Source: Marseilla massiliensis (GTDB taxonomy: Bacteria; Bacteroidota; Bacteroidia; Bacteroidales; Bacteroidaceae). Taken from it: a DNA stretch of 64,000 nucleotides. The position numbers and the translations under genes are program-made. The notes below the pieces were generated by a model that saw only the letters and a list, made by a program, of their open reading frames with translations, ran no database searches and was not told the DNA's origin. Within the stretch, counting starts at the first letter, position 1, and the number at the start of each line of letters is the position of its first letter. The DNA is taken from the NCBI RefSeq assembly GCF_016899855.1, contig NZ_JACJJG010000006.1, positions 1 to 64,000 of the forward strand, read 5' to 3'. Positions 38,080-49,131 of the stretch are shown piece by piece.

Positions 38080-40197
38080 ATGCTAAAGAGAATTTTACAA
38101 TCGCTGCTGACAGTGATGACGTTATTCGTCGCCGGCAGTATTCAAGCACAGACTCCGGCCTTCCCCGGAGCGGAAGGTTTCGGCCGGTACACCACGGGCG
38201 GACGTGGCGGTACGGTGTATCATGTCACCACGCTTGAGGACACGGGAACGCAAGGATCCTTGCGCTGGGCATGTAACCAAGAGGGCACCCGTACAATAGT
38301 TTTCGACGTTTCGGGCACTATACACCTTAAATCAGAGCTAAGACTGAGACATGAGAACGTGACAATAGCCGGACAGACGGCGCCGGGCGACGGCATTTGC
38401 ATAGCCGACTATCCGTTTGTAATCTCGACAGACAACGTCATCATACGCTTCATCCGCTTCCGCTTGGGCAACAAGGAAGTGGCCAACCATGAAGGTGACG
38501 GTCTTGGTGGCATGGATCTTGAGAACATTATCATCGACCACTGCTCCGTAAGCTGGAGCATAGACGAATGCCTTTCAGTCTATGGAAGCAAGAACTTAAC
38601 AGTGCAATGGTGTATAGCATCGCAAAGCCTGCGCGAGGCAGGACACTCAAAAGGCCGTCACGGATACGGCGGCAACTGGGGCGGTTCAGGCGCTTCGTAC
38701 CATCACAACCTGATAGCCCATCACGACTCACGCACTCCGCGCCTTGGCCCGAGACCAAGTACACAGACCGATGAGCGCATGGACATGCGCAACAACGTTA
38801 TCTACAACTGGCACGGCGAGGGCTGTTACGGAGGCGAAGCGATGAACGTCAACATCGTAAACAACTACTACAAGCCGGGTCCGGCAACCGACGGGACGAC
38901 AAAACAACAGCGCATAGCGAAAATCGGAATACGAACAACCGACTATTGCACAGAAGACGACGGCAGTTGGAACGAATGGCAGCCGACATGGCACAAATGG
39001 GGAACGTTCTACGTCAACGGCAACGTAAACCCTGCACAACCCAACGTAACGCAAGACAACTGGACATACGGAATATACAACCAGTTTGACAATAACAGCA
39101 AACTTGACAACATGCTTACGGACGAGGCGAAAGAAGAAATGCGCCTTGACGCCCCGATTACGTTTACCAACGTTACTACACACTCAGCCGAAGACGCCTA
39201 TGAGCGGGTACTCGAATACGCCGGAGCCTCACTACGCCGTGACTGGGTGGACGAGCTGATAGTAAATGACACCCGCAACGGACAGGCTACCTGCACAGGT
39301 ACCAAGAGCAACATTCCCGGAATTATCGACTCGCAGGACGACCTGAAGCAGGCATTCACCGATGCGGGCGACGACTGGAGCGCATGGCCCGAACTCGAAA
39401 GCGAGCCCGCACCGACTGATACCGACCAGGACGGAATGCCAGATGAATGGGAAGACGCCAACGGACTTGACAAGAACAATGCCGCAGACGGCGCCACGAT
39501 AGGCGCAGACGGATACTCCAACCTTGAAAAGTACATGAACAGCCTTGTACAAGACATCATGGACGGAGGCAACGAAGGCGGCACAATGCTCAGCGGTAAC
39601 GAAGAGTATGATGGCGAAGGCGGCGGCGACGAACCGTCACAGAGCGTAGTATATGTATTGGACAACACCACATACACCACGTCTTCAGCAGACGGATATA
39701 CATGGAACTTCAACAACGGGTTCAGCGTAAGCAACGAGGCCGGCAAGGCATACGGCAAAGAAAGCGGAACAGACCTTGTAAAATACTCGGCCGAACAATT
39801 TACGATAAACATTCCCGAAGGCAAGAAAGTGACCAAAGTCAGCTTCTACGGATACAACAAATATGCAGACAAAGACAGCTACATTGCAGAGCTTAACGGA
39901 CTGGAATACGGCGAGACAGACTATGTTTTCCCGGCGAAGGACAACGACCAGGCCGTTTACAGAACTCATGACATAGAGCTGGCGACACCTGCCGAAGGAA
40001 GCATGACGTTCACAATAAAGGGTAAACAATGCGCCCTGAAGATAAGCCTCTACACCGACATATCAACAGGTATCAGCGACATCACAGTTGAACGCAAGCC
40101 CACAGGCAAGATATACAACCTGCAAGGCATGGAGGTTAAGGAGCCTTTGCGCCCCGGAATATACATCCGCGACGGAAAGAAATTCATAAAAAGGTGA
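38080..40197 (+). CDS. Pectate lyase (PL1-type) with C-terminal module
   Basis: 705 residues. Signal peptide MLKRILQSLLTVMTLFVAGS to about residue 24. The beta-helix lyase starts at AFPGAEGFGRYTTGGRGGTV and runs to about 430, with the catalytic-arginine motif RTPRLG at 218-223. Next is a calcium-binding-like DTDQDGMPDEWE segment (about 445-480), then a beta-sandwich module and the terminal IYNLQGMEV.. ..GIYIRDGKKFIKR sorting signature. It cleaves de-esterified homogalacturonan by beta-elimination, the step after pectinesterase, and shares its operon. The stop TGA lies within a GGTGAGAAAGTGAG repeat. Confidence 0.92.
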   Translation: MLKRILQSLLTVMTLFVAGSIQAQTPAFPGAEGFGRYTTGGRGGTVYHVTTLEDTGTQGSLRWACNQEGTRTIVFDVSGTIHLKSELRLRHENVTIAGQTAPGDGICIADYPFVISTDNVIIRFIRFRLGNKEVANHEGDGLGGMDLENIIIDHCSVSWSIDECLSVYGSKNLTVQWCIASQSLREAGHSKGRHGYGGNWGGSGASYHHNLIAHHDSRTPRLGPRPSTQTDERMDMRNNVIYNWHGEGCYGGEAMNVNIVNNYYKPGPATDGTTKQQRIAKIGIRTTDYCTEDDGSWNEWQPTWHKWGTFYVNGNVNPAQPNVTQDNWTYGIYNQFDNNSKLDNMLTDEAKEEMRLDAPITFTNVTTHSAEDAYERVLEYAGASLRRDWVDELIVNDTRNGQATCTGTKSNIPGIIDSQDDLKQAFTDAGDDWSAWPELESEPAPTDTDQDGMPDEWEDANGLDKNNAADGATIGADGYSNLEKYMNSLVQDIMDGGNEGGTMLSGNEEYDGEGGGDEPSQSVVYVLDNTTYTTSSADGYTWNFNNGFSVSNEAGKAYGKESGTDLVKYSAEQFTINIPEGKKVTKVSFYGYNKYADKDSYIAELNGLEYGETDYVFPAKDNDQAVYRTHDIELATPAEGSMTFTIKGKQCALKISLYTDISTGISDITVERKPTGKIYNLQGMEVKEPLRPGIYIRDGKKFIKR

Positions 40198-40685: not shown

Positions 40686-40720
40686 AAAAAAATTGCAGGA
40701 CACGATATCGTGCCCTGCAA
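40686..40720 (-). terminator. Intrinsic terminator of the Omp28/thioredoxin operon
   Basis: On the minus strand TTGCAGG pairs with CCTGCAA around a palindromic CACGATATCGTG core, followed by seven T. It lies 29 bases after the stop of the 682-residue protein. Confidence 0.92.
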
Positions 40721-40749: not shown

Positions 40750-42798
40750 TTACTTCACAATCACCTTGCGTGTTGTTCCGTCAGACATCTTAACGATGTT
40801 CACGCCCTTAGTCGGAGCAGCCAGCAGCGTGCCGTCCAATGAGTAGCGTGCAACTTCAGTTGCGTTCTCTTCTTCAGTTGTAATATTTTCAATACCTGTC
40901 GTATAAGCTGCAATTTCCTTTTCATCAGCGTTTACAATCTCGCCCGTCTCGGTATTGATAAGCATTGCAACAACCTTCAGTTTAGACTTGTCTTGGATAA
41001 GTTCATTGCCCAAATAATAGCCTTGTATACCGTTAGATACATCAAACGTCGTAGTTGCCGTCTGCTTTTCTTCCATTACAATCGGAGCTTTCAAAGTCGG
41101 TTCCGTTGGCATAAGGTTCTGCGAAGCCAAAGCTACATGGTCATAAACCATATCCTTTACATATACACCTTGCAAAGAACCATATCCCGGTATATTAACC
41201 TCATCAACCTCACCCTTTGTCAGCCATGCATCAAGATAAGATTCACCTGTAGCCATGTTGCCATACATATAACTGCTACCGTTATATTGCCACCAGTAAT
41301 ACTCACTGCCTTGCAGACCGTCGCTCAACAGTACATAAGCCAGTGCATACGGTGCATCGTCACGGTTATAAAGGAAGGTAACGTCTGTGTTTACGTTAAT
41401 CTCCGTTTGGTTTTCGTTCCACTGCGGACTTACCGCAACCTCTGCCTCGGCTGCCCCACGCAGGGCCTCAAACCCGTCAAGTATGCCTAAGTACGCCGAT
41501 CCTGAACCGTAATAAGGATCAAACAGATACATATTACCCGTTCTATTCAACAATGCGCTTGGAACACCAAGTGAAATTTTATTAGCCTGGAAATATCCAG
41601 TCATATCATCGTATACAACTGTCTCCATCGGGTCTTCATAATTCACTGAAACGTGCGGAGATATGCCTATGAACTCGTCGGGATACGTGTCAGCCAAAGC
41701 AGCCATGCCTGCATAGCCTCGCGGACAATTCGGACAACCGGTACCCGTGAATTCCTCAACTACTATCTTCTTAGCCACATTCCTTGATACAATCAGCAAC
41801 GAGCCTGTGGCAGAAAGCACGCTCTCATTACCTTCATTGGCTTGACCGTTGACTTTGGTTATAGTAATTTCCTTGTTGAAAGAGCCTGTCTCACTTCCGG
41901 CTTCAACTTGGAATGTAACATCTGCCATCTCATAAAACATTGCTGGTTCATCAAGCGTCACAGTATTCTCTTCTGAAACTTCGCCCGTAGTAACATCTTT
42001 CACTGTGTAGCTCAACGAAGAGATATCGTTTACACCAAGGTTTTTCACAGACAGACGTACATTTGCCTTACCGTCCTTTGCTGCAACGACCTTGAAATCA
42101 GTGTCATTCAATGTAACGGCGTTACTCAAGAAGTTGTCGCCAGACAATTGGATCATGGTCAACAAGTTGCCTGATCCGAAACCGTACATGGTATCCCAAC
42201 CAGTGTCTTCGCCGTCGATTGTCATGTTCATAAAAGCGCCTCCCTCGATATCGTCGCCGCCATCAAAAGCAACAGGATACAGTCCATATTCAGACCCAAG
42301 ATCTGTCACGTCAAACGAATAGCCGACATAGCAACCTCCCTCAGGAATTGTATAATTCTCAGGCATTGCCAAAAAAGGCTCTCCGGTGGTAAACAGGTCA
42401 CCGGTAACGGTGACGTCGGTAATATAATCACAAGTGCTTGCGTTTACGGTAGTCGGCAACTGGTCTGCAATCCAACACTTCACATTGCCAACGCAACTTC
42501 TATCCACTATGTAAGAAGCAATGATGTCAATCTTGTTTCCTGCAAATTTGCCAGGTACAAAAATGGCACAATCATAATGAGAGGCATAGTTTTTACCACC
42601 ACCAATCAATCCTATACTGCTACCATAAGCATAAGTAAACACCACACCGTCAGTGCTTGCACGAGTAGCAGGAGCTTTCATCATCACATTATTATACTTG
42701 TGAGGAAAAGCTTTCTCGTATTTCTGCAACTTCTGGGCATTTGCCAAGCTACAGAAGGCAACGAGAACCGTTACTAAAGAAAGTAATTTTTTAACCAT
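40750..42798 (-). CDS. Large Omp28-like secreted protein with CPNC motif
   Basis: 682 residues. Signal peptide MVKKLLSLVTVLVAFCSLAN to about 21. A beta-rich N-terminal half (45-330) is followed by a thioredoxin-like Omp28 domain (about 343-600) whose entry strand KKIVVEEFTGTGCPNCPRGY has a CxxC pair at 355-358. The C terminus (ARYSLDGTLLAAPTKGVNIV.. DGTTRKVIVK) is a Prevotella-style secretion signature, so it is probably exported to the surface. It is the last gene of a five-gene operon with another Omp28 protein and a thioredoxin. Function is inferred: extracellular thiol exchange or a scaffold. Confidence 0.82.
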   Translation of the reverse strand: MVKKLLSLVTVLVAFCSLANAQKLQKYEKAFPHKYNNVMMKAPATRASTDGVVFTYAYGSSIGLIGGGKNYASHYDCAIFVPGKFAGNKIDIIASYIVDRSCVGNVKCWIADQLPTTVNASTCDYITDVTVTGDLFTTGEPFLAMPENYTIPEGGCYVGYSFDVTDLGSEYGLYPVAFDGGDDIEGGAFMNMTIDGEDTGWDTMYGFGSGNLLTMIQLSGDNFLSNAVTLNDTDFKVVAAKDGKANVRLSVKNLGVNDISSLSYTVKDVTTGEVSEENTVTLDEPAMFYEMADVTFQVEAGSETGSFNKEITITKVNGQANEGNESVLSATGSLLIVSRNVAKKIVVEEFTGTGCPNCPRGYAGMAALADTYPDEFIGISPHVSVNYEDPMETVVYDDMTGYFQANKISLGVPSALLNRTGNMYLFDPYYGSGSAYLGILDGFEALRGAAEAEVAVSPQWNENQTEINVNTDVTFLYNRDDAPYALAYVLLSDGLQGSEYYWWQYNGSSYMYGNMATGESYLDAWLTKGEVDEVNIPGYGSLQGVYVKDMVYDHVALASQNLMPTEPTLKAPIVMEEKQTATTTFDVSNGIQGYYLGNELIQDKSKLKVVAMLINTETGEIVNADEKEIAAYTTGIENITTEEENATEVARYSLDGTLLAAPTKGVNIVKMSDGTTRKVIVK

Positions 42799-42854
42799 AA
42801 CACATTAAGTTTTAAAGGTTAAACATTAAGTTAATAAAATACATATTAAGGTTG

Positions 42855-43490
42855 TTATCTTAATAATTTCTTTTCAGTTGTGCCATCAGAATACTTAATT
42901 ATGTTTATTCCTTTCTGCTGGCAGTCAAGTTGTTGACCACCAAGAGTGTAGTATCCTACGACTGTTTTATCTGTTGATGTCTGCACATCGTTTATTCCTG
43001 TCGGGTCTGAATAAACATAGTTTACAGTTATCTCACTGCCGCCTTGTATCGAATACTTCACGTTGAAACTGCCATAATTACCAGTTCTAACTCTCATCCA
43101 TTCAGACTTGGTATCCATTGTCTCACCTGCCGCAAGAGGAACTGCATCACAATCTATGACATCACTTATTGGATATTCGGCAATTCGGTCATTTAGCGGA
43201 ACAGGAACGCAGTCGCCGAAACCGCATATCTGGAACTGGCCTGACGGCATGTTTTCTATTGAACAACTTACGGCGCACGAAGTTGAAGAGTTTGTCATGT
43301 TTTTAACATATACACCTGAATGAATGGTTCCGATTCCCGTAATACTTGAAAACTCAATATTGTCACGCACTACAGTAGAACCTGCTGGTATAACGTTACC
43401 ACCAGCATCGACAAATTCAACAGTATTTCCTTGTGCAAAAACAGCTAAACCTGCCAATAACGCAAAACAAAGTGTAAAGATTCTTTTCAT
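42855..43490 (-). CDS. Cys-rich secreted protein of unknown function
   Basis: 211 residues, family not recognised. Signal peptide MKRIFTLCFALLAGLAVFAQ. The mature part has cysteines in SCAVSC, QICGFGDC and VIDCDAV, enough for disulfides, plus one near the end. The last 40 residues (YYTLGGQQLDCQQKGINIIK.. DGTTEKKLLR) are the same C-terminal signature as in the 682-residue neighbour. It lies between the two Omp28-like genes (23 and 56 bases). It may be a disulfide-bearing client of the thioredoxin-like proteins in the operon (inference). Confidence 0.75.
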   Translation of the reverse strand: MKRIFTLCFALLAGLAVFAQGNTVEFVDAGGNVIPAGSTVVRDNIEFSSITGIGTIHSGVYVKNMTNSSTSCAVSCSIENMPSGQFQICGFGDCVPVPLNDRIAEYPISDVIDCDAVPLAAGETMDTKSEWMRVRTGNYGSFNVKYSIQGGSEITVNYVYSDPTGINDVQTSTDKTVVGYYTLGGQQLDCQQKGINIIKYSDGTTEKKLLR

Positions 43491-43513
43491 ATTGATTTTA
43501 TTTGTTTAAATAA

Positions 43514-44326
43514 TTATTCCTCTTCATTATCATTCATTATCGCAGCTTTTACTACTTGCTGTACTCCACTATCATTGTAAACAAAAGCCACAACCGAGAC
43601 ATTTTCAGGATTCCAATCTGTCGGAATGTCATACGTAAAAGTGTTAGTCACGCTTTCACCTTCATCCAAATTGAAGTCATCACCCCACGTTCCGTTTACA
43701 GCAGCACGGAAAACGTGATTGTGTACGTAGTTCATGTTCTCACTTCCGTCAAGCATTGTTTGAAAGGCTGTTATCCCATCCTCTACAAGCCAAACCTGAA
43801 GTTTGCCGGACGTTGTACCATTTGTACCAAGCGACGACACGCTGATATCAAGCGTTCTGCTGCTTTCGTCATAAGCATTACTTATCTCCATTGACAACGT
43901 TGCCTGCTTTGAAATCTCGTTTCGCACCGAAGTTGCCCATTCACTCCATTGCAATATGCCAGATGAACGGTTGATAATACCTGCAGGTTGCGTTGTTATA
44001 CCCCAATGATAGAAATACTCATCGCCCGTTTCCGTCAACAAACCTATATTATCTCCAAAGCCCTCGAATCCTGTAGGACCGCTATGTATGCCCACCGCGA
44101 TTATTACCGAGTCACCATAATCAGATATAAGACTTTCTATTTCCGCAGCAGCGGTAGGACAGTTGGGACAAAGTTGGCCCGTGAAATCTTCCAACAGAAT
44201 CGCACGATTTACGTCCGCGGGTTTCACGTAGATAAACCTCTCGTCCTCCGAAATGTCGTTGCAGGCGGCAAAGGCAAGGGTTAAAACGCAGATGGCAGTG
44301 CTATATATAAGTTTCAGATGTTTCAT
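43514..44326 (-). CDS. Omp28-related lipoprotein with CPNC motif
   Basis: 270 residues. Lipoprotein signal peptide with the lipobox cysteine at residue 22 (LAFAAC), followed by an acidic stretch NDISEDE, as in lipoproteins sent to the outer membrane. The body is the Omp28 thioredoxin-like fold: RAILLEDFTGQLCPNCPTAA with CxxC at 53-56, then VIIAVGIHSGP. It starts 5 bases after the DUF6029 gene, strongly suggesting joint translation. Predicted to be outer-membrane anchored; redox activity is plausible but unproven. Confidence 0.85.
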   Translation of the reverse strand: MKHLKLIYSTAICVLTLAFAACNDISEDERFIYVKPADVNRAILLEDFTGQLCPNCPTAAAEIESLISDYGDSVIIAVGIHSGPTGFEGFGDNIGLLTETGDEYFYHWGITTQPAGIINRSSGILQWSEWATSVRNEISKQATLSMEISNAYDESSRTLDISVSSLGTNGTTSGKLQVWLVEDGITAFQTMLDGSENMNYVHNHVFRAAVNGTWGDDFNLDEGESVTNTFTYDIPTDWNPENVSVVAFVYNDSGVQQVVKAAIMNDNEEE

Positions 44327-44331
44327 TTTGT

Positions 44332-46011
44332 TTAGAAATTATAATTGTAAGAGAGTGTAAAACCACGACTCGAGGGCACACGGCGGCATACTCCGCCGGC
44401 ACAGTTCCAGCCTTCACGTGTGCGTCCGTAGCCTAATTGCACACGGTGTGAACCGTTATTGTAGGAAACATATCCCTGGTAATAGTGAACGTTTGTTCTG
44501 CCGCTATTGTACATATCGGCCACGGTAAACATCCAGTGGGGCAGGAACGACAGCTCCAACAGTCCGTAGAGCCAGTCGCCGTCGTCATCGTCAGTGCTAA
44601 GGTATTGCAGCTCGCCGCGCAGTGTCAGCTTCCTGTTTATGCGGTATTTTGCATCGGCAATGAAGATGTCTGAATGCACCATGCCGCCCTCTCCCTCAAC
44701 GATGGTCTGGTTATAAAACTGGTTCATGTACATGAGGTTAAGCCTGAACGCACGAGAGAAAGGCTTTTCGATCTGGATGTTGAAGTCCTGGTAGTAAGTC
44801 TCGTCACCCCATTTCCAGAACGCCGAGCCATAGCCGTCAGTGCCGCTGAACGTGCCGTTATAAGGATTTACGGCATGGTTGTTGCGGTCAATGGCGTGTA
44901 CGTGCGAGAAGTTAACTTTCACGTTCATTCCATATTTTCCTCCAAGGGCGGTATTTCGCTTGAAGCGGTATCCCAGTTCGGCCTGATATGCCCACTCGCC
45001 GTTAGGCTGCGTGGCATACGGATAAAGCGCCGCGAGGGCATAAGTATGCTCAGTCGTGAAAGCCGGCAGGTGGTTGATTGACGAGGCTATGGCGCTGGTC
45101 TCGCCCCTACGGCTGCGGAACACCATAGCGTCGCTACGCTTTGCCTGCACCAGCAGGCTGAGTCCGCTCTTTGAATACGAGGCCGACAGCATGGCGACAT
45201 TGCCCTCACGGTAGATGTAAGGATAGCGTCCGTCAAAGGTAGGGTCTTGTCCTTTCCACGCATATTCGGCAAGAATGTTGAAGCCGCCTTTCTGAAGGCT
45301 CGCCCTGACGTCAAACGCGTTGACAGACGTAGGGAAATTAAGCTTGTGTGAAGTTCCGATAACAAGGTCTTCGTCTTTCTCATACTTGTTCACCCACGAA
45401 GCCCCCAAGGTAAGGTAAGTGCCCTTATCAGAAAGAGCCTTGAACCATTGGTCGAAGTTCAATTCGAGGTCGGCGCCAGTCACCCAGCCATTGTTGTGCG
45501 CCCAGAAACGGCGCTGCTTGCCGGAGAGAATCTTAGCCGTAACACCCTTGACAGGACGAACGACGAGGCGTCCGCCAAGTAGTGAGTTGTCAATACCAAG
45601 AGTGCGCTCCTCGTATGTACGGAGAATGAAGCCCGAACCGAACTGTTCGTAGAAGTTACCCAACGTCAAATCCCATGATTTAAAGTGTGCCTTAACATAC
45701 ACATAAGGGACACCCCAGCCCTTAAACCCTTTCTCGTCGTAGAACGTTGGCAACGGGTGTTTAACGAACTCGAAACGTGCGCCGGCGTCAATGTGCTCGC
45801 TCGTGACGTTCACGTCTGCATAGGTATTGGTCAGTCCCCATTCGTTATACCCCTTGGCGTTGATAGTTTTATCCTCTTCAGGTATGATAATGTCGCTCTG
45901 TATACTTCCGCTTACGTTAATCTTGTTGCCCCCGTCGTCTTGCGCGGCTGAGCAAACAGGCATGGCTATGGCGGCCAGCAGGCAGAGCAGCTTGCTCGAT
46001 GTTGTTGCCAT
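44332..46011 (-). CDS. DUF6029 family outer membrane beta-barrel
   Basis: 559 residues with a signal peptide (cleavage near PVCSAAQ) and no transmembrane helices. Alternating strands rich in aromatic residues and the terminal GFTLSYNYNF, with its final Phe, indicate a beta-barrel. Segments such as WDLTLGNFYEQFGSGFILRT are typical of DUF6029. It might act as an outer-membrane partner of the Omp28 proteins (inference). It lies 51 bases after the thioredoxin gene. Confidence 0.8.
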   Translation of the reverse strand: MATTSSKLLCLLAAIAMPVCSAAQDDGGNKINVSGSIQSDIIIPEEDKTINAKGYNEWGLTNTYADVNVTSEHIDAGARFEFVKHPLPTFYDEKGFKGWGVPYVYVKAHFKSWDLTLGNFYEQFGSGFILRTYEERTLGIDNSLLGGRLVVRPVKGVTAKILSGKQRRFWAHNNGWVTGADLELNFDQWFKALSDKGTYLTLGASWVNKYEKDEDLVIGTSHKLNFPTSVNAFDVRASLQKGGFNILAEYAWKGQDPTFDGRYPYIYREGNVAMLSASYSKSGLSLLVQAKRSDAMVFRSRRGETSAIASSINHLPAFTTEHTYALAALYPYATQPNGEWAYQAELGYRFKRNTALGGKYGMNVKVNFSHVHAIDRNNHAVNPYNGTFSGTDGYGSAFWKWGDETYYQDFNIQIEKPFSRAFRLNLMYMNQFYNQTIVEGEGGMVHSDIFIADAKYRINRKLTLRGELQYLSTDDDDGDWLYGLLELSFLPHWMFTVADMYNSGRTNVHYYQGYVSYNNGSHRVQLGYGRTREGWNCAGGVCRRVPSSRGFTLSYNYNF

Positions 46012-46062
46012 CAGTGGTTTCTCTCTAATTAAAATGAATATTCTTAAATCCCGATTGCAGGC

Positions 46063-46551
46063 TTATTTTGCCTGAAGCTCCCTCACTTTTTCTATAAGTT
46101 CTTCTTCAGCGCCTTCTACGTAGCCGTTATGGCGATAGGCGATTTTTCCGTTACCGTCTACTATTATAGTATAAGGTATTGTCTGAACCCCGAGTGAACG
46201 CTTGAAGTCACCATTCGGATCAAGCAGCACGTCGTATGTCCATCCGTGGCTGTCGACCAGTGGTTTCACCTTATTTACGTTCTGGGCCTGGTCAATCGAC
46301 ACGGCGATAACCTTCACGCCAGTCTCGGCCTGCCAGTCTTCATACACTTCACTGATGGCTGTAAGCTCGCGGTTGCAGGGCTTGCACCACGTAGCGAAAA
46401 AGTCTATTATAAACGGCTTACCATTGTTTGAAAGCGTATCAGTCCTTACAGTCTTACCGTTGATATCTTTCAACGTTACCGAAGGAATCTGGGCTTCAGC
46501 CGCAAATGAAAAACTGAAAGCTAAGACAAATGAGATAAAAAACTTTTTCAT
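46063..46551 (-). CDS. TlpA/ResA-like thiol-disulfide oxidoreductase
   Basis: 162 residues. Signal peptide to about residue 20 (SFSFAAEA), then a thioredoxin fold with active site WCKPC (C56 and C59) in FFATWCKPCNREL and the cis-Pro loop GVQTIPYTIIVD. This is the periplasmic TlpA/ResA class, generally reductive. It is the first gene of the operon, downstream of the promoter at 46624-46631, and likely supplies reducing power to the CxxC proteins encoded next to it (inference). Confidence 0.9.
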   Translation of the reverse strand: MKKFFISFVLAFSFSFAAEAQIPSVTLKDINGKTVRTDTLSNNGKPFIIDFFATWCKPCNRELTAISEVYEDWQAETGVKVIAVSIDQAQNVNKVKPLVDSHGWTYDVLLDPNGDFKRSLGVQTIPYTIIVDGNGKIAYRHNGYVEGAEEELIEKVRELQAK

Positions 46552-46623: not shown

Positions 46624-46631
46624 CAAAAATA
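46624..46631 (-). promoter_or_regulatory. Bacteroidota -7 promoter element of the thioredoxin/Omp28 operon
   Basis: On the minus strand TATTTTTG followed by CT, 73 bases upstream of the thioredoxin start. Confidence 0.6.
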
Positions 46632-47345: not shown

Positions 47346-47553
47346 TCTTGCAGAATTAACATGGACTGAACCCACAGGTTTAGAGGGGTGAGCCAAGTAT
47401 AATTCTATGCAATTGACAGGAAGATTTGCCGCAGTACACACGATTGCACACATTCTCACGACACACGCACCGACGACCGCCAATGGCTGTCGGGCAACTC
47501 ACTGCGCACTTAACCAACCAAATAATCATATATTCAACAAAAAACAAAAAATC

Positions 47554-49131
47554 ATGAAGAAGTTAAATCTGTTTTTCATGGCCATGACCATGCTGTTCAT
47601 GGCCGCAAGCCTCACAGCCTGCAGCGACGATGACAACAACGGCGGAGGAGGAGCTGACCTGCCCACTCCGCAATACGAGCAGGTAAGCGGCAAGTACGCT
47701 ATCACATCGGAAGGTTCTCCTTACGAGAGTATCGAACTAAGCGCCAGCGGCAACTACATCGTGACCCTAAACTACAGCGGAGGTTACTACGCCGCCGACA
47801 ACACTTCGGCAAACCGCATATCCACAAACCACCACAAGTCGCTATTAAGCGGCGGCGCACAGACGCGCGCCACGCAGGATGGGAACGTGATATACGGAAC
47901 ATTCACCAGTCTCGGCGAGAATGAATACGCCCTTGAAGGTTTCGGCACGATAAAGCTTGACTACACAGGCAGTGACGTAACTGGTATAGAAGTGACGACA
48001 CAGGGTGGACAGACCACGCAGTACACTGCCGAAAAACAACCCGTAATGGGCGACGACAACATGACAAGCTCACTCTGCCGCACATGGAAGATAGAGAAAA
48101 TACATGATGTGTACTATGACAAGGAAACCGGCAAGACCGATGACGTTACCGTAACACCCGAAAATCCAGGTGAAACAGGTTATGATATGCCCATCGAGGT
48201 TATGTGGTCTAAATCGGGCACGTATTTGGTTTCTTACCGCGACGGCAGCATAGGCATAGCCGAGTGGAAATGGAAAGACCGCGGCGCAGGCCAACTGTAC
48301 TATGCGTGGGATGGCGAATGGACGGGCGACTACGCCACGATAACATTCGACAGAAACAGGGCCGTAATACATGACAAATGGGAAGACGAATACGGACGTG
48401 ACGAGTCGTGGACTTACCTCGTAGCCGTAGACGCCCCTGAAACGCCCGGCACCGACCTGCCCGAAGCACAGTCACCTCTGGCAAACGTGTTCACCGGCAA
48501 ACTGCTCAAGCAGATGGGCGACGACCAGTTCTTCTACGAAAACGGCTATCTGACGCAAATAACAAACGACAAAGAGACAATCACCTTCAACTACAACTAC
48601 GCGACGGGCGCAGACGGCCCTGACGTTTACGTGACTATGAGGGGAGACGGCGACGACGATTTCGCCATAACGCTTAACGAGCAAGGCTTCGCCGAGAAGA
48701 TTGTACAGACAAGCTACGACCAATACGGTGAGAATGTGTACACAAAGACATTGGAATACGACGCCGACGGCCACCTCACGGCCATGAACGACGACCGCAA
48801 CGGCCGCCTGTACGACCTGACTTGGACTGACGGCAACCTGACAAAAGTACACTGGCTATCCGACAGCGGCAGCGAGCACACATATACATACACCTACGGC
48901 GACCAGGCAAACACCAACTGCCTGCTGTTCTACTACAAGGTGTACTCGGTTGACATCGACGAGGTGCAATGCCTCTACTACGCCGGCCTCTTGGGCAAAG
49001 CTCCCAAGCACCTGCCCGAATTGGAGACAAGCGACAGCGGCAGCACAACCACCTTCACGTGGACCGACAACAGCCTGACAGTAGACGGCGACGACTATCA
49101 TCCTACGGAGTTCAGCTTCTACGAAGAATAA
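47554..49131 (+). CDS. Surface lipoprotein with DUF4595-like domain
   Basis: 525 residues from the ATG at 47554. Signal peptide ends at C23 (SLTAC), followed directly by SDDDNN, the acidic tag that directs Bacteroidota lipoproteins to the cell surface. The middle part (about 215-325) resembles a lipocalin-like beta domain (RDGSIGIAEWKWKDRGAGQL). The C-terminal 190 residues (YLTQITNDKETITFNYNY, YDADGHLTAMNDDRNGRLYD) show the DUF4595 / YD-repeat-like pattern. Function unknown. It is convergent with rpoC, sharing the terminator at 49203-49239, and appears monocistronic. Confidence 0.82.
   Translation: MKKLNLFFMAMTMLFMAASLTACSDDDNNGGGGADLPTPQYEQVSGKYAITSEGSPYESIELSASGNYIVTLNYSGGYYAADNTSANRISTNHHKSLLSGGAQTRATQDGNVIYGTFTSLGENEYALEGFGTIKLDYTGSDVTGIEVTTQGGQTTQYTAEKQPVMGDDNMTSSLCRTWKIEKIHDVYYDKETGKTDDVTVTPENPGETGYDMPIEVMWSKSGTYLVSYRDGSIGIAEWKWKDRGAGQLYYAWDGEWTGDYATITFDRNRAVIHDKWEDEYGRDESWTYLVAVDAPETPGTDLPEAQSPLANVFTGKLLKQMGDDQFFYENGYLTQITNDKETITFNYNYATGADGPDVYVTMRGDGDDDFAITLNEQGFAEKIVQTSYDQYGENVYTKTLEYDADGHLTAMNDDRNGRLYDLTWTDGNLTKVHWLSDSGSEHTYTYTYGDQANTNCLLFYYKVYSVDIDEVQCLYYAGLLGKAPKHLPELETSDSGSTTTFTWTDNSLTVDGDDYHPTEFSFYEE

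Follow-up and report, generated by a model that had tools for sequence, protein, structure and literature searches.

A conserved thioredoxin, DUF6029 barrel and Omp28 operon in Marseilla massiliensis as a candidate thiol-disulfide relay reaching the cell surface

Comparative analysis of a 64,000-nucleotide stretch of the Marseilla massiliensis genome (contig NZ_JACJJG010000006.1, positions 1 to 64,000; hereafter the window) addressed an operon that encodes, in 5' to 3' order, a periplasmic TlpA/ResA-like thioredoxin, a DUF6029 outer-membrane beta-barrel, an Omp28 lipoprotein, a 211-residue PorA-like protein and a 682-residue Omp28-related protein, with gaps of 51, 5, 23 and 56 bases between the genes. 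The operon proved genuine and is conserved across many genomes, and on the basis of alignments and predicted structures we lean towards reading it as the outer section of a reductive thiol-disulfide relay extending to the cell surface. A thiol-redox system had been proposed from the DNA letters alone (the original prediction), and the claim is well supported by the conserved gene order, the thioredoxin-like CxxC motif of Omp28 and the linkage to DsbD in three lineages; the five open reading frames (ORFs), their order and their tight spacing (gaps of 5-56 bases) were also present as claimed.

DUF6029 proteins were identified in 28/60 relatives, in 220/392 Bacteroidales genomes and, at the level of the phylum, in 77/287. 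The gene order was examined in 149 order-level loci, made up of the window, sets of 28 and 40, and the best 80 of at least 577, the last set being skewed to Prevotellaceae and including one record (L139) titled Clostridium. A further 20 loci, of which eight were picked since their families already showed DsbD, brought the order-level sample to 169. Thioredoxin directly preceded DUF6029 in 143/149 loci, Omp28 directly followed it in 138, and a thioredoxin within two genes upstream together with an Omp28 within two genes downstream was found in 157/169 loci, the remainder having only the thioredoxin (8), only Omp28 (1) or neither (3). The large Omp28-related gene followed downstream in 60 of the 169 and the PorA-like gene in 94 by a full profile, which also matched thioredoxins tailed for the type IX secretion system (T9SS) via their sorting domain, or in 82 when recounted with its N-terminal part only; the members used to build either profile came from these same loci. 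The complete five-gene order was therefore counted in 56/169 loci (55 with the stricter PorA profile), about a third. Beyond the order, a phylum sample comprised all 76 DUF6029 genomes listed besides the window's own, 75 from outside Bacteroidales and one (G100) from the window's family. A thioredoxin lay within two genes upstream of DUF6029 in 62/76 (26/32 in a first set and 36/44 in the remainder), and Omp28 within two genes downstream in 38/76, a sum of 15/44 in the loci added afterwards and a biased 23/32 in the first set, which was chosen partly for Omp28 adjoining DUF6029. Both flanks were occupied in 18/32 and 10/44 loci, while 17 of the 76, all of family f135 (L251 and 16 others), had a thioredoxin-profile gene downstream instead.

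The original prediction had called for a neighbourhood search and had named a gene order restricted to close strains as evidence against it; the core order is kept far beyond close strains, and the thioredoxin-DUF6029 pair even outside the order. As a five-gene unit the claim held in part, the complete order being confined to the order-level minority above and found in 0/76 phylum-sample loci. Across the 392 genomes, Omp28 and DUF6029 occurred together in 182, DUF6029 alone in 38, Omp28 alone in three and neither in 169, so that 182 of 185 Omp28 genomes had DUF6029 (Fisher p 5e-68, kinship ignored); the Omp28 query was one 162-residue fragment by which distant members are missed. Variants of the arrangement were also seen, with Omp28 between thioredoxin and DUF6029 in L281 and L283, and DUF6029 seemingly divided into two ORFs in L136 and L189.

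In the order-level alignments, with a threshold of cysteine in 30% or more of the rows of a column, each of the five families had one conserved cysteine pair and, the lipid cysteine of Omp28 aside, no further such column. The first-gene protein matched AhpC-TSA (4.1e-25, above cut-off) and a ResA-like profile (2.8e-23), with a ResA subfamily score of 82.7 bits under the cut-off of 170, and its WCKPC motif spanned residues 55-59, with C56 and C59 in 142/142 non-gap rows of 143, compatible with its description as a TlpA/ResA-like thioredoxin. The Omp28 lipoprotein matched NF033782 at 7.6e-90 (300.7 bits, cut-off 150) and was made up of a thioredoxin-like N-terminal half carrying CPNC (residues 53-56) and a PF11551 domain; its lipid cysteine C22, C53/C56 and P114 were each present in 137/137 non-gap rows of 138. 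An hhalign comparison with the thioredoxin family aligned the CxxC motif and the cis-Pro-like proline (probability 94.1, E 1.2e-7 for a single comparison). The N-terminal half of Omp28 thus appears to carry a thioredoxin-like active-site pattern, unlike what a buried structural disulfide needs, and the invariant proline and this alignment are counter-evidence to the buried structural CxxC pair that the original prediction had named as its second point of failure.

The original prediction had paired Omp28 with the 682-residue protein as two CPNC proteins of one fold, of which the shared motif was confirmed and the fold in part, the larger protein having only a partial NF033782 match (residues 339-474, 2.1e-10). 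Its CPNC lay at residues 355-358, with C355/C358 in 61/61 aligned relatives. A sorting-domain profile did not match the protein (a relative in locus L056 matched PF18962 at 0.0013, below its cut-off), and a single-sequence search of the PDB gave nothing significant. An Omp28-related selenoprotein family (NF045500) was considered and dropped: the window protein scored 59.5 bits against a cut-off of 200, 0/392 genomes exceeded it, and the internal stops in weak matches were a mixture of TAG, TAA and TGA. In Paraprevotella, a 1257-1265-residue Omp28-domain protein is encoded divergently to the module (L116 3497-7294, L117 3549-7322, L118 3543-7319), which may be the published trypsin-binding protein 00502.

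The DUF6029 gene product matched PF19494 with 660.8 bits (cut-off 27, E 2.1e-198), and contained a cysteine pair overlooked in the original prediction. C537/C542 was kept in 149/149 loci, in the 20 further loci (20/20) and in 73/76 of the phylum sample (31/32 and 42/44), where, of the three loci without it, L262 has a truncated ORF, the frame of L277 is broken and L307 is a match below the family's cut-off. The AlphaFold2 model (mean predicted local distance difference test score 87.9) had 24 strands of at least seven residues, counted by hand, with loops that by our reading are alternately long and short apart from a few, and the pair lay in a 16-residue loop (residues 532-547) preceding the last strand. 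By convention this loop would be extracellular, because the usual barrel rule puts the C-terminus in the periplasm. The best structural matches of the model were the FimD usher (Z 18.0, root-mean-square deviation (rmsd) 4.5, 371 residues aligned) and the OccK3 porin (Z 17.4, rmsd 6.2, 321 aligned), and since these were tied, DUF6029 is described from its model as a large outer-membrane barrel and nothing more specific.

A DsbD gene lay within the gene run in three lineages, corresponding to 12/169 order-level and 1/76 phylum loci. In family f22 all eight fetched genomes (nine known) had the order thioredoxin, DUF6029, Omp28, PorA-like, large Omp28, DsbD, and in f21 all four fetched genomes (five with DUF6029) had thioredoxin, DUF6029, Omp28, DsbD; domains were confirmed for L054 and L056, and in L056 the phmmer search left the PorA-like gene unnamed. 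The third lineage (L249) belongs to another order and has DsbD directly after DUF6029 and a divergent Omp28 gene; DsbD was not found downstream in any of the later 44 phylum loci. Because DsbD, which moves electrons outward, joins the gene run, the linkage suggests that the module works in the reductive direction. The genome of the window has a single DsbD match, outside the operon, that is 63% identical to the operon-linked DsbD of L056. Apart from the four within the gene run, the only other match of at least 250 residues in the 149 loci was a DsbD homolog in L102 (3708-5789), which lies some 2 kb upstream of DUF6029 on the other strand.

Placement at the surface was suggested by the tails of some members. 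The usual place of Omp28 as third gene was taken in L059 by a thioredoxin with a T9SS sorting domain; in L251 two thioredoxins stood there, the first with a lipobox recognised by eye and the second with a T9SS sorting domain, and in L232 Omp28 itself carried such a domain. The sequence after the Omp28 lipid cysteine was acidic, with a mean of 2.2 acidic and 0.25 basic residues in the next five, resembling the surface-export signal of Bacteroidota lipoproteins. The T9SS-tailed thioredoxins and Omp28, together with this acidic stretch, therefore suggest an oxidoreductase acting at the surface, and the sorting domains on some members, including 17 of 46 PorA-like proteins (TIGR04183; the window's protein was not among them), support the surface part of the original interpretation. 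The genome of the window also holds the T9SS genes SprA and PorU, of which SprA is too common to inform (57/60) and PorU near universal (361/392 genomes). PorU was present in 215 and absent in five of the genomes with DUF6029 (the five read by eye from the listing), against 146 and 26 of those without DUF6029 (p 2.6e-6, kinship ignored), a weak association that is not main evidence.

The fourth protein had been described as "Cys-rich"; its cysteines are present, but only C89 and C94 are conserved (75/81 and 78/80 rows, among 83 sequences gathered by position and size of which some may not belong), and its likeness to PorA had gone unrecognised. For its predicted model the first Foldseek match was PorA (6kjk, E 1.7e-6), and comparison with 6kjk (VIA) gave Z 15.0 and rmsd 2.3 over 123/134 aligned residues at 15% identity, the next row having Z 10.0. 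A 46-member family profile also placed 6kjk first in the PDB (E 7.7e-5), aligning the cysteine pair to C-F-G-Q-C of PorA, while 6kjk was missing from the matches of a 9-member profile and the 211-residue sequence alone had no PDB match below E 1.1. In its C-terminal part the 46-member profile matched the RgpB C-terminal domain at 0.0025. Model and profile alignment together identify the predicted protein as PorA-like. A CxGGxC motif common to DUF6029 and PorA-like proteins is not claimed, being present in only 15/85 PorA-like candidates. Dockerin type I, an unexpected terminus for proteins of the T9SS type, was found in 3/46 PorA-like proteins (best 3.4e-9). In 7/76 phylum loci the N-terminal PorA profile matched a gene at a different place in the retrieved sequence; in L260 (3635-4348), L282 (6432-7142) and L286 (2795-3535), all outside the order, the matching gene lay directly upstream of thioredoxin on the same strand and had a CX3C pair.

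In Porphyromonas gingivalis, PorA is PG2172 (PGN_0123; PMC8754138), binds PorV (PMC5562754) and takes part in T9SS gene regulation via PorXY-SigP (PMC7712824), and PG2173 is an Omp28 lipoprotein (PMC9722745), the adjacency of the two resting on these locus numbers in the literature. The P. gingivalis locus itself was not recovered: the PG2172 peptide pattern was found in 0/9 genomes, in none of the loci examined at that point and nowhere in the G050 family (one genome), and a search of the samples with the Omp28 fragment gave best identities of 38-39%.

In the relay that we favour, DsbD, whose gene lies outside the operon in this genome, would hand cytoplasmic electrons to the periplasmic TlpA-like thioredoxin, and the DUF6029 barrel, with some 24 strands and its pair in the last extracellular loop, would cooperate at the surface with the lipid-anchored thioredoxin-fold Omp28. 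The two may set the thiol state of surface proteins, the most likely clients being the PorA-like and Omp28-related T9SS-type proteins of the same operon. The PorA-like protein is a probable client, and not the sole one because it is absent downstream in many loci. Crossing of the outer membrane could occur by entry of the thioredoxin into the wide barrel, by chemistry that precedes insertion, or by DUF6029 exporting its partners. A bolder form, which we think rather unlikely, is a thiol electron conduit in which the thioredoxin docks in the DUF6029 barrel and electrons pass to the extracellular pair, Omp28 and PorA, with surface redox feeding T9SS gene control. What the analysis shows is the genes with their order and conservation, the cysteine pairs, the predicted folds of the barrel and of the PorA-like protein, and the link to DsbD; reduction as the direction, Omp28 on the surface, the PorA-like client and above all electron transfer across the outer membrane are inferred.

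Several observations weigh against the relay. The periplasmic thioredoxin reaches the extracellular loop only by entering the barrel or by acting before insertion; the extracellular placement of the DUF6029 pair depends on a monomer model and on the customary rule for barrels, and the surface exposure of Omp28 on the acidic sequence after its lipobox and on literature passages. DsbD is linked in only 13/245 loci, and the PorA-like gene lies downstream in only 82-94/169 order-level and 0/76 phylum loci. DUF6029 is absent from 172/392 Bacteroidales genomes, missing in many that bear a T9SS and present in five without a PorU match. Redox activity of a module member was not reported in the literature passages. 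In Paraprevotella, the genes 00503-00508, which lie between the trypsin-degradation genes 00502 (Omp28-related) and 00509, are reported to be dispensable for trypsin degradation (PMC9477747); if they include the module, as we infer from the neighbourhoods of L116-L118, the module is dispensable for T9SS export of 00502.

Among the alternatives, the one that deserves most weight, doubtful as we find it, is an assembly system in which DsbD, thioredoxin and Omp28 act in the periplasm, reducing or reshuffling the disulfides of DUF6029 and PorA-type cargo ahead of insertion or secretion; the pairs would then finish as structural disulfides, without electron transfer across the outer membrane. It accounts for the invariant pair of the barrel and its reductive partners without a membrane crossing, has a precedent in LptD, an outer-membrane barrel whose disulfides are rearranged during assembly, and agrees with the phylum sample, where DUF6029 is often accompanied by thioredoxin alone; the T9SS-tailed thioredoxins and Omp28, in contrast, point to an extracellular oxidoreductase that would be superfluous for periplasmic assembly. 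Unlikely in our estimate is that DUF6029 is a dedicated export or anchoring pore for PorA-family proteins whose folding or gating the thiol proteins tune. PorA reaches the surface of T9SS-deficient P. gingivalis mutants, which implies another route (PMC7712824), and DUF6029 resembles the FimD usher as the PorA domain resembles FimH, but the usher match is tied with OccK3, 75-87 of the 169 order-level DUF6029 loci are without a downstream PorA-like gene, and a DUF6029 gene beside PorA in P. gingivalis was not confirmed.

Two further explanations appear very improbable. Some Wzi-type barrel hits resemble DUF6029 and a role in polysaccharide secretion has been suggested (PMC9603273), so that DUF6029 might be a polysaccharide export barrel with the thiol genes as unrelated passengers, but thiol partners on both sides in 157/169 loci and the invariant cysteine pair of the barrel speak against this. 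Equally remote is that the pairs are buried structural disulfides of adhesins, conserved from folding only; Omp28 has been named a surface adhesion/receptor protein (PMC7290125), yet its CxxC and invariant cis-Pro-like proline align to the thioredoxin family and the module is linked to DsbD.

The features of the locus and its boundaries are collected in Table 1. The terminator claimed for the operon is there, as a 12-pair stem (40720-40693) followed by seven T residues, and terminator-like sites across the window numbered seven against 6.6 in shuffled sequence, with no overall excess. A promoter upstream of the thioredoxin gene is only plausible, because a TAnnTTTG box exists at the claimed site (46631-46624) but such boxes are common in the window, at 57 where shuffled sequence averages 40, and a -33 box was not seen by eye. 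The convergent neighbour (38080-40197, plus strand) encodes a secreted pectate-lyase-like beta-helix protein (NF041900 1e-39, below cut-off) with a C-terminus resembling a T9SS tail by eye, and the divergent neighbour (47407-49131, plus strand) a protein with a DUF4595 domain (1.6e-18).

Table 1. Genes, cysteine motifs and boundary signals of the operon (positions in the window).
Feature	Position	Strand	Evidence or detail
Thioredoxin gene (TlpA/ResA-like, periplasmic)	46063..46551	minus	ORF and profile matches; WCKPC codons 46375-46386
DUF6029 outer-membrane beta-barrel gene	44332..46011	minus	PF19494 match
CX4C of DUF6029 (C537-C542, CAGGVC)	44386..44403	minus	loop preceding last strand
Omp28 lipoprotein gene	43514..44326	minus	NF033782 match; CPNC codons 44159-44170
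PorA-like 211-residue protein, T9SS-like C-terminus	42855..43490	minus	C89/C94 codons 43209-43226
682-residue Omp28-related protein, T9SS-like C-terminus	40750..42798	minus	CPNC codons 41725-41736
TAnnTTTG box, possible promoter -7 element	46624..46631	minus	motif scan, weak
Terminator-like hairpin with T7 tail	40693..40720	minus	hairpin scan

The module offers a testable shared role for the poorly understood DUF6029, Omp28 and PorA-like families. It also extends the PorA family beyond Porphyromonas, in which alone homologs had been found by its authors (PMC7712824). The present proteins share with P. gingivalis PorA the FimH-like N-terminal domain, the T9SS-type C-terminal domain in relatives, a cysteine pair and an Omp28 gene, by locus number adjacent there (PG2173), and differ in the 15% structural-alignment identity and in a pair spacing that is mostly four residues here and three in PorA. 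Cysteine chemistry at the Bacteroidota outer membrane tied to the T9SS is likewise known from the SprF/PorG-GldK disulfides of gliding and T9SS, with inter-protein links to the internal track, in a paper whose main text leaves thioredoxin unmentioned (PMC12635249). A possible redox input into T9SS control is suggested by the present set.

Known reductive relays of DsbD with TlpA-, CcmG- or DsbC-type proteins end in the periplasm. The present set resembles them in that DsbD and a TlpA-type thioredoxin are encoded together in some lineages, and differs in adding a barrel of the outer membrane and thioredoxin-fold proteins that are probably at the surface. To our knowledge no established pathway delivers thiol reducing power to the exterior of Gram-negative cells; in literature covering few subscription journals, only periplasmic Dsb proteins of Helicobacter surfaced for such a route, and the passages found drew no connection between Omp28 and thioredoxin in Bacteroidota. 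The MtrCAB porin-cytochrome conduit combines a periplasmic electron carrier, a large barrel and a surface carrier in one operon, a plan that the present operon shares with cysteine pairs in place of haems, a thioredoxin inside the barrel being only hypothetical; if true, the thiol conduit would be the disulfide counterpart of the porin-cytochrome conduits.

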